Positions 30,805-34,525 of a stretch of DNA of 64,000 nt are shown piece by piece (positions within the stretch are counted from its first letter, which is position 1; each line of letters begins with the position of its first letter). The notes beneath the pieces were generated by a model that saw only the letters and a program-made list of their open reading frames with translations, searched no databases and had not been told where the DNA came from. The stretch is from Azoarcus sp. CIB (GTDB lineage Bacteria; Pseudomonadota; Gammaproteobacteria; Burkholderiales; Rhodocyclaceae): positions 4,340,001 through 4,404,000 of the forward strand of contig NZ_CP011072.1 in the NCBI RefSeq assembly GCF_001190925.1, written 5' to 3'. The position numbers and the translations under genes are program-made.

Positions 30805-31170
30805 ATGCAGCAAGCGCAACGCAGGCATTTCTCGCGCATCCGCTTCAACGCAGGCGCCCGCTTGCTGGTCGGCGACCGCGAAGCCCCGTGCGACGTCCGC
30901 GACCTGTCGCTCAAGGGCGCCCTGATCCGGTCGGCGCCCGAACTGCTACCGGCCCCGGGCGAGCGCTGCCTGCTCGAAATCACACTCGACGACGAAGGCG
31001 CAGCGATCCGCATGGAGGGGGACGTCGTACATACCGAAAATGGCTGTATCGGGCTCGCTTGCCGCGAGATCGATCTCGACAGCATCACCCATCTGCGCCG
31101 GCTGCTGGAACTCAATCTCGGCGCCCCAGAATTGCTGCAGCGCGAACTCGGAGCGCTGCAGGAGCACTGA
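30805..31170 (+). CDS. PilZ-domain c-di-GMP binding protein
   Basis: A 121-residue single-domain PilZ protein. The RRxxR c-di-GMP motif is in QRRHFSRIRF (residues 6-15), and the DxSxxG motif is DLSLKG. The remaining barrel and C-terminal helix are intact, so binding is expected. The start at 30805 follows GCAAGGACTC. It lies between the lap operon and the zinc operon and could be an effector for surface attachment or pili; the target is unknown. Its stop lies just before the 57-bp palindrome. Confidence 0.9.
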   Translation: MQQAQRRHFSRIRFNAGARLLVGDREAPCDVRDLSLKGALIRSAPELLPAPGERCLLEITLDDEGAAIRMEGDVVHTENGCIGLACREIDLDSITHLRRLLELNLGAPELLQRELGALQEH

Positions 31171-31177
31171 GCCGTCC

Positions 31178-31234
31178 GGCGGTGAACATGGCAGCTAATG
31201 CTACAATGTTGCATTAGCTGCCATGTTCACCGCC
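31178..31234. promoter_or_regulatory. 57-bp near-perfect palindrome with embedded Zur-box candidate
   Basis: Arms 31178-31201 and 31211-31234 are perfectly complementary (24 bp each). The 9-nt centre is itself symmetric except for one pair and the middle base. The core 31196-31216 matches the AT-rich proteobacterial Zur consensus at about 12 of 20 positions (AATG-n-TA-n-A, centre, mirrored). It ends 5 bp before the zur start codon, so it may be the autoregulatory operator for zur-znuCBA. The arms beyond the core are longer than a Zur site needs. Confidence 0.7.
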
Positions 31235-31239
31235 CCGCG

Positions 31240-31683
31240 ATGCCCACTCCGGATATATCTCCTGCCGCCCACCTGATAGCCGCCTGCGGCGGCCGCGTCA
31301 CGCGCACGCGCATCGCGGTGCTCGAGATCCTGCAGGACAGCCCGCGCTCGCTGAACCACGACGATGTCGCGGCACGACTTGCGGCGGACGGCATGCCGCA
31401 CGACCGCGTGACGCTGTACCGCACGCTCGACTGGCTCGTCGAGCAGGGACTCGCGCATCGCATCATCGGCCCCGACCGCGCGCGGCGCTTCAAGGCGGGC
31501 GGTGAGCCCCGCAGCCAACACGCGCACTTCCACTGCGACCGCTGCGGCCACGTGCTGTGCCTCGAATCGATCCGGCCCGACGAACAATTCACGCTGCCGG
31601 CCGGATACCAGCCGGAGCGGGCCGAACTGGTGTTCCACGGCACCTGCGCGGATTGCGGTCGCCAGCGTGGGGCAAAGGTCTGA
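31240..31683 (+). CDS. zur: Zur-type zinc-responsive Fur-family repressor
   Basis: A 147-residue Fur-family regulator. The winged helix (about 10-85) is followed by a dimerisation domain with the metal-site segment HAHFHCDRCGHVLC and the structural zinc pair CADCG near the C-terminus. Assignment to Zur rather than Fur rests on the downstream znuCBA genes. The ATG at 31240 gives the family length; the frame also runs back to 31198 inside the palindrome, which would add 14 unlikely residues. The ribosome binding site is poor, as expected if the leader is mainly operator. Confidence 0.9.
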   Translation: MPTPDISPAAHLIAACGGRVTRTRIAVLEILQDSPRSLNHDDVAARLAADGMPHDRVTLYRTLDWLVEQGLAHRIIGPDRARRFKAGGEPRSQHAHFHCDRCGHVLCLESIRPDEQFTLPAGYQPERAELVFHGTCADCGRQRGAKV

Positions 31684-31724: not shown

Positions 31725-31940
31725 ATGCCCCGACACAAAGAGATCATGCCCCCGACATCGAGCAGTGCACTCCCGCACACTCATCACCACCATGACCATG
31801 AAGACGGCCATGTGCACGGCGCAGTCGCCGCGGCCTCCTTCCCCGGCACCGCGCTGCTGCTCGGCGTCGGCGCACGCATCGCCCTCGCAGCCGGCGCAGC
31901 CGCCGTGCTGTGGCTCACCGTAGGCTGGGCCCTCGCATGA
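31725..31940 (+). CDS. His-rich small membrane protein in the zinc operon
   Basis: A 71-residue protein (ATG 31725, or 50-odd to 64 residues from later ATGs). It has an N-terminal metal-binding-like stretch rich in histidine and acidic residues (HTHHHHDHEDGHVHG, about 18-32) and one C-terminal membrane helix (about 42-70). It lies between zur and znuC and overlaps the znuC start by 4 bp (ATGA), so it is translated with the transporter. I know no characterised homologue. A zinc-chelating or zinc-delivery role is inferred from composition and position. Confidence 0.75.
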   Translation: MPRHKEIMPPTSSSALPHTHHHHDHEDGHVHGAVAAASFPGTALLLGVGARIALAAGAAAVLWLTVGWALA

Positions 31941-32695
31941 ACGCCCGCGACGCCATCCTCGAACTCGACAACCTGACCCTGGGCTATGACCGCCATCCGG
32001 CCGTCCACCACCTCAGGTGCCGTATCGCCCCAGGCGCATTGGTCGCGATCGTCGGGCCCAACGGCGCGGGCAAGTCGACGCTTTTCAAGGCGCTGACCGG
32101 GGAGCTGCCCCCGCTGCAAGGTCACTTCCGCGTGCACGCGGGCAAGCGCGGCATCGCCTACCTGCCGCAGCAAAGCGAACTCGATCGCAGCTTCCCGGTA
32201 TCCGTGTTCGACATGGTCTCGATGGGGCTGTGGCGCGAGATCGGCGCCTTTCGCGGACTCAGCCGCAGCCAGGCGGAGCGCGTGCGCGCGGCCCTCGCGG
32301 CGGTCGGCCTGTCGGGCTTCGAGGCGCGCCAGATCGGCACCCTCTCCGGTGGCCAGCTGCAGCGCGCGCGCTTTGCGCGGATGATGCTGCAGGACGCGAA
32401 CCTCCTCCTTCTCGACGAGCCGTTCAACGCGATCGACGCGCGCACGATCGAGGACCTCATCGCCCTGATCCTGCTGTGGCATGCCGAAGGACGGACCATC
32501 CTCGCCGTTCTCCACGATCTCACCCTGGTGCGACGCCACTTCCCCGAGTGCCTGCTGCTCGCGCGCGAATGTCTCGGCTTCGGCCCGACCGACGAGATCC
32601 TCACCCCCGAACGCCTCGCCACCGCGCGCCGCCTTGCCGGCGAGTTCGACGCCACCGCTCCGGTGTGCCACCGCCCCGAAGCGGAGGCCGCATGA
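31937..32695 (+). CDS. znuC: Zinc ABC transporter ATPase
   Basis: A 252-residue ABC ATPase of the metal-uptake (ZnuC/MntB) family. Walker A is GPNGAGKSTL, the signature LSGGQLQRARFARM, and Walker B LLLLDEPFNAID. Further family marks are YLPQQSELDRSFPVSV (Q loop) and the switch histidine in AVLHDLTLV. It is overlapped at the start by the His-rich gene and at the end by znuB (4 bp). Zinc rather than manganese specificity is inferred from the Zur regulator and the His-rich binding protein. Confidence 0.94.
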   Translation: MNARDAILELDNLTLGYDRHPAVHHLRCRIAPGALVAIVGPNGAGKSTLFKALTGELPPLQGHFRVHAGKRGIAYLPQQSELDRSFPVSVFDMVSMGLWREIGAFRGLSRSQAERVRAALAAVGLSGFEARQIGTLSGGQLQRARFARMMLQDANLLLLDEPFNAIDARTIEDLIALILLWHAEGRTILAVLHDLTLVRRHFPECLLLARECLGFGPTDEILTPERLATARRLAGEFDATAPVCHRPEAEAA

Positions 32696-33561
32696 TCGCG
32701 GAAACCCTGTTCGGCCCCTTCGCCGAATTCGAGTTCATGCGCCGTGCGCTCGCGGGATGTCTCGCGCTTGCGCTGGGGGCGACGCCGGTCGGCGTGTTCC
32801 TGCTGCTGCGGCGCATGAGCCTGATGGGCGACGCGATGGCGCACGCGATCCTGCCCGGCGCCGCGCTCGGCTATCTCGCCTTCGGCCTGTCGCTCGGGGC
32901 GATGACGGTCGGCGGCATCATCGCCGGCATCGTCGTCGCGCTCGCGGCCGGCCTCGTCGCGCGGTCGTCCATCCTCAAGGAGGATGCCAGCCTCGCTGCC
33001 TTCTACCTGCTGTCGATCGCCACCGGCGTGATGATCGTGTCGCTGCGCGGACGCAACCTCGACCTGCTGCACGTGCTGTTCGGCTCCGTGCTCGCGCTCG
33101 ACGACCCCTCGCTACTGCTGATCAGCGCGATCACGACTGCGACGCTCGTCGCACTCGCGCTGCTGTACCGGCCGCTGGTGCTCGAATGCTTCGATGCCGC
33201 CTTCCTGCGCGGCGTCAGCGCCGCCAGCCCGATCGCGCACTACGGCTTTCTGGTGCTCGTGGTGCTCAACCTCGTCGCCGGCTTCCATGCCCTCGGCACG
33301 CTGATGGCGGTCGGCATCATGATCCTGCCTTCGGCCGCGGCACGCCTGTGGGTCAAGCGCCTGCCGGCGATGCTCGGCCTCGCAGTCATCATCGCCTTCG
33401 CCAGCGGCATCGGCGGGCTGCTCGCCTCCTTCCACGCGGACGTTCCGGCCGGGCCGGCGATCATCCTCGCCGCCGGCATCGTCTACCTGCTGTCGCTCAT
33501 CCTCGCCCCGGGCGGCATGCTGGGCGCCCGGCTCAACCGCCGCCCCCACCTCGAATCCTGA
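32692..33561 (+). CDS. znuB: Zinc ABC transporter permease
   Basis: A 289-residue membrane protein of the ABC-3 family with eight or nine predicted helices. The family motif RRMSLMGDAMAHAILPGAALGY lies near residues 40-61, and HALGTLMAVGIMILPSAAARLW (about 200-222) is the other conserved block. It overlaps znuC by 4 bp, and znuA follows 16 bp later. Confidence 0.95.
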   Translation: MIAETLFGPFAEFEFMRRALAGCLALALGATPVGVFLLLRRMSLMGDAMAHAILPGAALGYLAFGLSLGAMTVGGIIAGIVVALAAGLVARSSILKEDASLAAFYLLSIATGVMIVSLRGRNLDLLHVLFGSVLALDDPSLLLISAITTATLVALALLYRPLVLECFDAAFLRGVSAASPIAHYGFLVLVVLNLVAGFHALGTLMAVGIMILPSAAARLWVKRLPAMLGLAVIIAFASGIGGLLASFHADVPAGPAIILAAGIVYLLSLILAPGGMLGARLNRRPHLES

Positions 33562-33577
33562 ACTGCTGCACGAACGC

Positions 33578-34525
33578 ATGCGCCACATCCTGCACCGCCT
33601 GCTCGCCCCCCTCATTGCGCCATTCCTCGTGCTGCTCGGGCTCGCCGCCCATCCCGTACAGGCAGCCCCCCTCGAAGTGGTCACGAGCTTCAGCATCCTC
33701 GGCGACTTCATCCGCCAGGTCGGCGGAGACCGGGTCAAGGTCACGATGCTCGTCGCGGCCGACCAGGACGCACACAACTTCCAGCCCCGCCCCTCCGACG
33801 CCCGCCGCATCGGCGCCGCGCAGCTGGTGGTCGCCAGCGGTCTCGGATTCGACCCCTGGCTCGAGCGGCTGGCGCAGACAGCGGGGTACAAGGGTCGCGT
33901 CCTCGTCGCCAGCCACGGCGTCGAACCGATCGCGGCCGCCGACGAGCACGACGACGCACACGGTCACGGCAAGGGATCCCATCAGGACGCCGTCGATCCG
34001 CACGCGTGGCAGGACGTCGCGCGTGCGCAGCGCTACGTCGCGAACATCGCCGACGCGCTCGCGCAGGCCGACCCGGCGAACGCGAAGGCCTATCGGGACA
34101 ATGCCGCCAGTTATGCAGCCGAGCTGAAGGCGCTGGACACAGAAATCCGCAACGCCCTGGCCGCAGTCCCGGCCGAGCGGCGCAAGGTCGTCAGCGCCCA
34201 CGACGCCTTCGGCTACTTCGCCCACGCCTACGGCGTGCGCTTCCTCGCCCCTGCCGGCATCAGCAACCAGTCGGAACCCTCGGCGGCCGGCGTCGCGAAG
34301 CTCATACGCCAGTTGCGGCACGAGAAAGTGCCCGCGGTATTCGTCGAGAGCGTCAGTGACCCGCGCCTGATCGAGCGCATCCGCAAGGAGAGCGGCGCGC
34401 GCCTCGGCGGCACGCTGTATTCGGATGCGCTATCGGCGGCCGACGGCCCGGCACCGACCTACGTGGCGATGATGCGTCACAACCTGCGCACGCTGCTGGA
34501 CGGAATGACCCCGACCAGCCGCTAG
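33578..34525 (+). CDS. znuA: Zinc-binding periplasmic protein
   Basis: A 315-residue cluster A-I metal-binding protein with a signal peptide (about 1-29, AHPVQA). The first metal histidine is in DAHNFQPRPSD, the second in VDPHAWQD, the third in VSAHDAFGYF, and the last acidic ligand lies near GTLYSDAL. A charged loop DEHDDAHGHGKGSHQD (about 127-142) is the His-rich loop typical of zinc rather than manganese binders. It is the last gene of the zinc operon and converges on a LysE gene with 20 bp between stops. Confidence 0.94.
   Translation: MRHILHRLLAPLIAPFLVLLGLAAHPVQAAPLEVVTSFSILGDFIRQVGGDRVKVTMLVAADQDAHNFQPRPSDARRIGAAQLVVASGLGFDPWLERLAQTAGYKGRVLVASHGVEPIAAADEHDDAHGHGKGSHQDAVDPHAWQDVARAQRYVANIADALAQADPANAKAYRDNAASYAAELKALDTEIRNALAAVPAERRKVVSAHDAFGYFAHAYGVRFLAPAGISNQSEPSAAGVAKLIRQLRHEKVPAVFVESVSDPRLIERIRKESGARLGGTLYSDALSAADGPAPTYVAMMRHNLRTLLDGMTPTSR

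Follow-up and report, generated by a model that had tools for sequence, protein, structure and literature searches.

A long palindrome at the predicted Zur operator of Azoarcus sp. CIB: a conserved core, perfect but unconserved arms, and template switching as their probable source

Results and discussion

The zur-znuCBA locus and its palindrome

The window analysed here is a stretch of 64,000 nucleotides from the genome of Azoarcus sp. CIB (contig NZ_CP011072.1, positions 4,340,001 to 4,404,000), and all coordinates are counted from its first letter. A pilZ-domain gene, a long palindrome, zur, znuC, znuB and znuA follow one another in this order (Table 1). The palindrome, GGCGGTGAACATGGCAGCTAATGC-TACAATGTT-GCATTAGCTGCCATGTTCACCGCC, is made up of a left arm (31178-31201), a centre and a right arm (31211-31234); the arms are 24 bp long and complementary without any mismatch, and the 9-nt centre (TACAATGTT) is symmetric about its central A, save for one pair. 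The stem stops 5 nt ahead of the zur ATG. An inverted-repeat search recovered the same site with 28-nt arms that are 96% complementary and stand 1 nt apart.

Table 1. Features of the zur-znuCBA locus, with positions in the 64,000-nt window.
Feature	Position	Strand	Basis or remark
pilZ-domain gene	30805..31170	+	Pfam PilZ; same direction as zur; ends 7 nt before the palindrome
Palindrome (operator core with its extended arms)	31178..31234	.	57 bp; arm search and fold
Species-specific left flank, outside the 23-bp CTAATGC..GCATTAG core	31178..31194	.	Cross-species comparison
Predicted Zur operator, the conserved core AATGCTACAATGTTGCATT (9-1-9 with one pair asymmetric)	31197..31215	+	Conservation, position
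Predicted extended -10 element TG-C-TACAAT (TGcTACAAT) of the zur promoter	31199..31207	+	Sequence
Predicted region of the transcription start, some 7 nt past the -10	31213..31216	+	Sequence, with general knowledge of promoters
Right flank, species-specific and exactly complementary to the left one	31218..31234	.	Cross-species comparison
zur, Fur family, 147 aa	31240..31683	+	Pfam FUR
znuC, ABC ATPase	31937..32695	+	Pfam ABC_tran; start codon picked by eye
znuB, ABC-3 permease	32692..33561	+	Pfam ABC-3
znuA, zinc-binding protein	33578..34525	+	Pfam ZnuA

Folded as RNA, positions 31160-31260 reach -59 kcal/mol; 200 shuffled versions averaged -29.0 (sd 3.4), which gives z -8.9, and none of them matched the real energy. 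The exact arms, the near-symmetric centre and this fold together bear out an earlier note on this DNA, written from the letters alone, which had pointed to a long palindrome here. Rfam returned five weak matches, all far under their gathering scores, and no known structured RNA leader. The length of the arms is unusual for this genome: among 20 evenly spaced 20-kb stretches (400,000 of its 5,257,030 bases) there were 16 perfect hairpins with arms of at least 12 bp and loops of at most 12 nt, and their longest arm, at 19 bp, falls short of the 24 bp seen here. Inside the window itself, the second-longest perfect hairpin arm is 12 bp.

The gap between zur and znuC holds a 64-aa reading frame (31746-31940) with a His-rich stretch (HTHHHHDHEDGHVHG) and a hydrophobic tail. 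Pfam gave no match to this frame; by eye, A. toluolicum (L004) and A. tolulyticum (L006) have similar DNA. The product could be a small zinc-related membrane protein.

A conserved core over a predicted promoter

Within the palindrome, and upstream of the zinc uptake genes, stands a pseudo-palindrome of Zur-operator size (~15-23 bp). We compared it across 17 zur loci of the genus, one genome per species and CIB, the window's own genome, included. The core AATGCTACAATGTTGCATT precedes zur without mismatch in 15 of the 17, with one mismatch in one more and in a three-mismatch form in the last (G010, L018), and it is kept across these genomes better than its flanks. All 22 of a further set of family loci (L083-L104) carry the same core with zero to three mismatches. 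Conservation and position support the earlier note's statement that the core fits a Zur box, and we treat it as a predicted Zur operator.

The asymmetric base of the core is the first T of TACAAT, and a TG lies one base upstream of this hexamer, giving a predicted extended -10 element within the operator. Transcription is expected to start about 7 nt downstream of a -10 element. This would place the start of zur in the right arm, so that RNA made from the promoter of zur itself would be without the left arm. In the 22 family loci the hexamer reads TACAAT (14), TACTAT (six), TACACT (one) or TACCCT (one); a standard sigma-70 scan, which also requires a -35 element, found no promoter at the CIB site. 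Seven loci of genus g8 have another core (TTGCAAC..GTTGCAA or near) and, by eye, TACAAT immediately after it and outside the symmetric box, which fits the idea that the asymmetry of the CIB core pays for its promoter.

Comparison with known Zur sites rests here on excerpts of two papers. At E. coli znuABC, two Zur dimers sit on an 18-bp motif with an even centre (PMC4219657); a review holds this two-dimer state unlikely to carry over to other Zurs, names boxes of 9-1-9, 7-1-7 and 23-bp type, and notes that the recognised sequences differ between species (PMC6103462). Like these boxes, the zur core is a pseudo-palindrome over promoter elements before zinc uptake genes, but, by eye, its centre is odd, unlike that of the 18-bp E. 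coli motif (RNNNYRNNRYNNYRNNNY). Since boxes of these three types are known, the core would suffice for Zur, and further sites in the arms are not called for; the excerpts of PMC4219657 and PMC6103462 contain no Zur box with 24-bp arms.

The CIB genome holds only one other near copy of the core, with three mismatches (L034, 1501-1519), which is also present in G002 (L050, 1501-1519). The gap at L034 is flanked, by eye, by enoyl-ACP reductase-like and HAD-type genes, and the copy there is without extended arms. We considered this site as a second Zur target; it is probably a promoter match and not a Zur site.

Perfect but unconserved arms

The arms behave quite differently from the core. Past the 19-bp core, perfect flanks run for 19 bp in CIB and in A. 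toluolicum, 18 bp in Aa7 and 17 bp in A. toluclasticum. They are shorter in A. toluvorans (8 bp), G009 (7 bp), G012 (6 bp) and A. evansii (4 bp), and the remaining nine of the 17 loci show at most 2 bp of perfect extension (six of the 17 have 0 bp). A. tolulyticum and G014 have longer but imperfect flank matches. At L019 (G008, A. anaerobium), zur itself was matched as two pieces in different frames, and the gene seems broken or misassembled.

The long perfect flanks of these four genomes represent three unlike sequence types. The arms of CIB and A. toluolicum are alike: among their first 17 pairs, three have changed, each on both sides. Every other pairing among the four long-armed loci differs in 7-10 of the first 17 pairs, again on both sides and in ungapped alignment; since perfect arms alone were compared, one-sided changes are excluded by construction, and it is the amount of change that is informative. 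Comparing the same gap in related genomes, as the earlier note had proposed, yields a core that is kept and arm letters that are unlike between species. That note had offered two overlapping Zur dimer sites as one explanation of the extra length, and an arm whose letters differ between species lends this no support.

The amount of change is best judged against the surrounding DNA. CIB and Aa7 are sisters in a 3.4-kb tree from which the operator was removed (support 95/96). Their arms differ by 0.36-0.53 per aligned site overall (left 0.39; right 0.36-0.53 depending on the stretch), whereas the surroundings differ far less: 0.10 in the stretch upstream of pilZ, 0.07 within pilZ, 0.04 within zur (third positions 0.10) and 0.07 downstream of zur. 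In this one sister pair, the arms have turned over completely. The other pairs are closer to their background: 0.16 in the arms of CIB and A. toluolicum against 0.03-0.15 around them (upstream of pilZ 0.15; zur third positions 0.08), 0.24-0.29 against 0.05-0.18 for A. toluolicum and Aa7, and 0.21 (left) and 0.28-0.53 (right) against 0.08-0.24 for A. tolulyticum and A. toluclasticum. A joint change of both arms beyond local divergence is clear for CIB and Aa7 only, and not for CIB and A. toluolicum. Selection on pairing alone should slow the evolution of a stem; the arms of CIB and Aa7 outrun their surroundings, which argues against stepwise compensatory evolution. The lack of G-U pairs in the stems (0 of 73), which we had considered as evidence, was dropped, as the run is defined by Watson-Crick pairs.

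A long inverted repeat in an intergenic gap might also be a captured miniature mobile element, another idea of the earlier note, which had called for a genome-wide search for further copies of the arms. In the 5,257,030-bp genome, no arm copy with up to three mismatches exists beyond the palindrome's own two halves, so the CIB arm is single-copy. In the 17 genomes, the arms of Aa7 and A. toluclasticum are paired only at their own zur palindromes (the A. toluclasticum arm has two further, unpaired matches with three mismatches). The core, moreover, is common to the species and the arms at the same spot are unlike. These searches contradict the mobile element, and we give it practically no credence.

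Extended arms in a second genus and in the wider family

Extended arms recur in a second genus, g19, of which we searched 28 genomes. Twenty have a zur match (four of them without a core by the pattern used), and the core before zur reads TGCAAC-NNN-GTTGCA. Perfect extension reaches 13 bp in G195, G285 and G288, 8 bp in G245 and 4 bp in G295; G283 has a near-perfect extension with one mismatch and wobbles. Between G195, G285, G288 and G245, one to five arm pairs have changed, on both sides. Fast turnover is clear for CIB and Aa7 alone; what the g19 loci show is that perfect arms recur.

The setting of the g19 palindrome also differs. Upstream of zur, on the opposite strand, lie msrB and msrA (Pfam SelR and PMSR in G288, SelR in G295), and similar msr protein endings are visible by eye upstream in G195, G285, G245 and G222. 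The presumed zur -10 (TGnTCTAAT) is, by eye, to the right of the palindrome. Lying between the divergent msrB and zur, with the -10 to its right, the g19 palindrome is probably not transcribed, and an RNA hairpin is probably a poor explanation for it.

In three g19 genomes (G290, G264 and G279; L145, L146 and L147), zur is 56-57% identical to that of the window, and in the other 17 g19 matches the figure is 39-47%, a difference hinting at replacement by transfer.

The family search gave 123 match rows, and we examined the upstream DNA of 77. The 22 loci L083-L104, with their conserved core, extend by only 0-3 bp. Of 40 further family loci, 24 have the core (at most five mismatches) with extensions of 0-4 bp and 16 lack it, the latter including two of the extended g19 palindromes (L140, L143); in L020-L032, partly from other families of the order, nine of 13 lack the core by the pattern used. 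Among the 77 loci, perfect extensions outside the Aromatoleum group and g19 are short. As the same core so often occurs without extension, in the 17-genome genus, in L083-L104 and in the 24 further loci, the core by itself does not suffice to produce the arms.

Some other palindromes were seen along the way. Genus g8 includes a 61-bp quasi-palindrome in L020 (G023), at roughly -74 to -14 relative to the zur match, and one of 55 bp in L130, and those of the rest of its six other loci are shorter or unrelated. A slightly extended (4 bp) Zur-like palindrome, GGTTAATGCAATAATGTTGCATTAACC, precedes zur in G072 of genus g57 (L144).

Functional readings of the arms

The best functional rival to a mutational origin of the arms is a read-through insulator: RNA entering from pilZ would fold and hide the zur start, and RNA begun at the promoter in the loop, lacking the left arm, would be translated normally. 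Hairpins of the T4 gene e and IS10 type hide a start in read-through RNA and not in the gene's own RNA. The zur start would be hidden in the same way, but the zur arms, unlike such hairpins, are unconserved, and the pattern recurs where read-through is not expected.

The layout is well suited to an insulator, with a co-directional pilZ ending 7 nt before the palindrome and a stem ending 5 nt before the zur ATG, and so is part of the distribution. Arms of at least 17 bp occur in the genus only with pilZ upstream (all four long-armed loci), as a read-through function would predict, and the six loci with zero extension are without a PilZ match in the 1500 nt upstream. On the other hand, four of the ten pilZ-linked loci of the genus extend by just 1-4 bp (L006, L008, L012, L013), L011 extends by 6 bp although no pilZ precedes it, and L099, from another genus, has pilZ with zero extension. 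The orientation of the upstream gene thus accounts for the arms only in part. Predicted folds point both ways: the mean unpaired probability from -15 to +13 of the AUG is 0.36 and 0.32 in two read-through RNAs, compared with 0.59 when zur is transcribed from its presumed own starts, whereas the AUG itself has an openness of 0.60 (longer read-through fold) or 0.12 (shorter one), the presumed own starts giving 0.29-0.30. No clear ribosome binding site is visible by eye within the arm, the g19 palindrome lies between divergent genes, and the arms of CIB and Aa7 have changed far beyond their surroundings, unlike stepwise compensatory evolution. We consider the insulator unlikely. Of the earlier note's leader hairpin hiding the zur start, then, the part that might stand concerns read-through RNA from pilZ; it does not hold for RNA begun at the presumed zur promoter, since the -10 of that promoter is in the loop, or for g19.

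The hairpin might instead belong to the 3' end of the pilZ mRNA, as a terminator or stabiliser, and its place right after the pilZ stop codon would suit this. A terminator scan, however, found no intrinsic terminator at the palindrome and no T run follows the stem; the stem would also swallow the presumed zur promoter, and the g19 palindromes would be left unexplained. We regard this role as very improbable.

A DNA cruciform under selection would allow for the variation between species. Symmetric arms of any sequence would aid extrusion under supercoiling and might tune the promoter or Zur occupancy; symmetry suffices, so that both species-specific arms and the g19 site between divergent genes fit. 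Most of the relatives examined, however, have the same core without extended arms, and some mutational source of perfect arms would still be required. In E. coli, according to an excerpt of PMC6060812, cruciform-prone inverted repeats are enriched in promoters and after stop codons and few lie just before start codons; the zur site agrees with the first two settings, yet its stem ends just before a start codon, and turnover of arms goes unmentioned in that excerpt. Selection for a cruciform seems to us quite unlikely.

Template switching seeded by the operator

The interpretation that we favour, and think probable though far from assured, is that the core is a Zur operator laid over the zur promoter, and that the arms are recurrent template-switch (quasipalindrome) mutations which this operator seeds. 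Template switching was not among the three ideas that the earlier note had put forward for the extra length. The central ~19-23 bp would be the operator, overlying the extended -10 of zur-znuCBA, and zinc-loaded Zur bound there would block RNA polymerase. The same short, imperfect palindrome would also serve to seed a hairpin when the DNA is replicated: the nascent strand would fold back, the polymerase would briefly copy the opposite flank, and on its return at short matching letters one flank would have become the exact reverse complement of the other. Selection would retain the core and its asymmetric T, the first base of the -10, and the arms would have no sequence-specific role. Repeated events of this kind would explain perfect arms that are unlike between close relatives.

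The mechanism itself has precedent, cited here from excerpts. Quasipalindrome template switching is an established mutation mechanism in E. coli (PMC7202029) and is known in yeast coding DNA (PMC8604942). As in those mutations, an imperfect repeat at zur would have been made perfect or longer, with the arms homogenised and several bases changed at once; unlike them, the zur case comes from species comparison, at a predicted repressor operator, and repeatedly. Template switching has also been put forward as a source of RNA stems and as a means of their upkeep (Monttinen and Loytynoja, 2022; PMC8794818). The zur loci resemble that proposal in their perfect stems, which would form in one step, and in coupled multi-base changes that mimic compensatory evolution, but the proposal concerns RNA genes, whereas the seed at zur is a predicted DNA operator and the g19 stem is probably untranscribed. 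A literature search on template switching at operators or promoters, and on Zur in Azoarcus or Aromatoleum, turned up, among the papers listed, no title or abstract opening on this case, most subscription papers lying outside its reach.

Copying of one arm from the other should leave a template arm that resembles the arm of relatives and a copy that does not. We compared 21 species pairs in this way, and all z values given here are uncorrected for that number. In a first test, in which the stretches on the right ran up to the start codon and gained from the conserved letters there, the right arms of CIB and A. toluolicum resembled A. tolulyticum (z 4.4 and 4.7; left 0.9 and 1.4), and the left arm of A. 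toluclasticum resembled A. tolulyticum and G009 (5.0 and 4.1; right 1.4 and -0.6). With equal 17-nt stretches, the values against A. tolulyticum became 3.2 and 3.3 (right) and 2.3 and 2.5 (left) for CIB and A. toluolicum; against G009, CIB gave 1.3 (right) and 1.8 (left). The values for Aa7 were 1.9 (right) and 1.0 (left). The first test had favoured copying from right to left in these three genomes, CIB, A. toluolicum and Aa7, which the equal stretches did not bear out. For A. toluclasticum the equal stretches gave 2.4 and 2.2 (left) against A. tolulyticum and G009 and -0.7 and 0.2 (right), weakly suggesting that its right flank may have been copied from its left. Overall, the support for a direction of copying is weak, and it is best taken as a lead.

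A more general idea follows, which we offer tentatively and think less likely than not: repressor operators may act as self-templating seeds. The dimer symmetry of a repressor site would let it fold during replication, its flanks would be rewritten again and again, and the process may generate or repair the symmetry itself, with the zur loci as one series in at least two genera.

Coupled changes in a stem are usually taken as proof of a selected RNA structure, and at the zur locus this signature appears in the DNA of a promoter. That the g19 stem, probably untranscribed, has this signature too is a warning against reading it as selected RNA. The zur loci also form a small natural set in which the rate of operator rewriting by template switching could be measured, and their arms bear on the origin of palindromic repressor sites.
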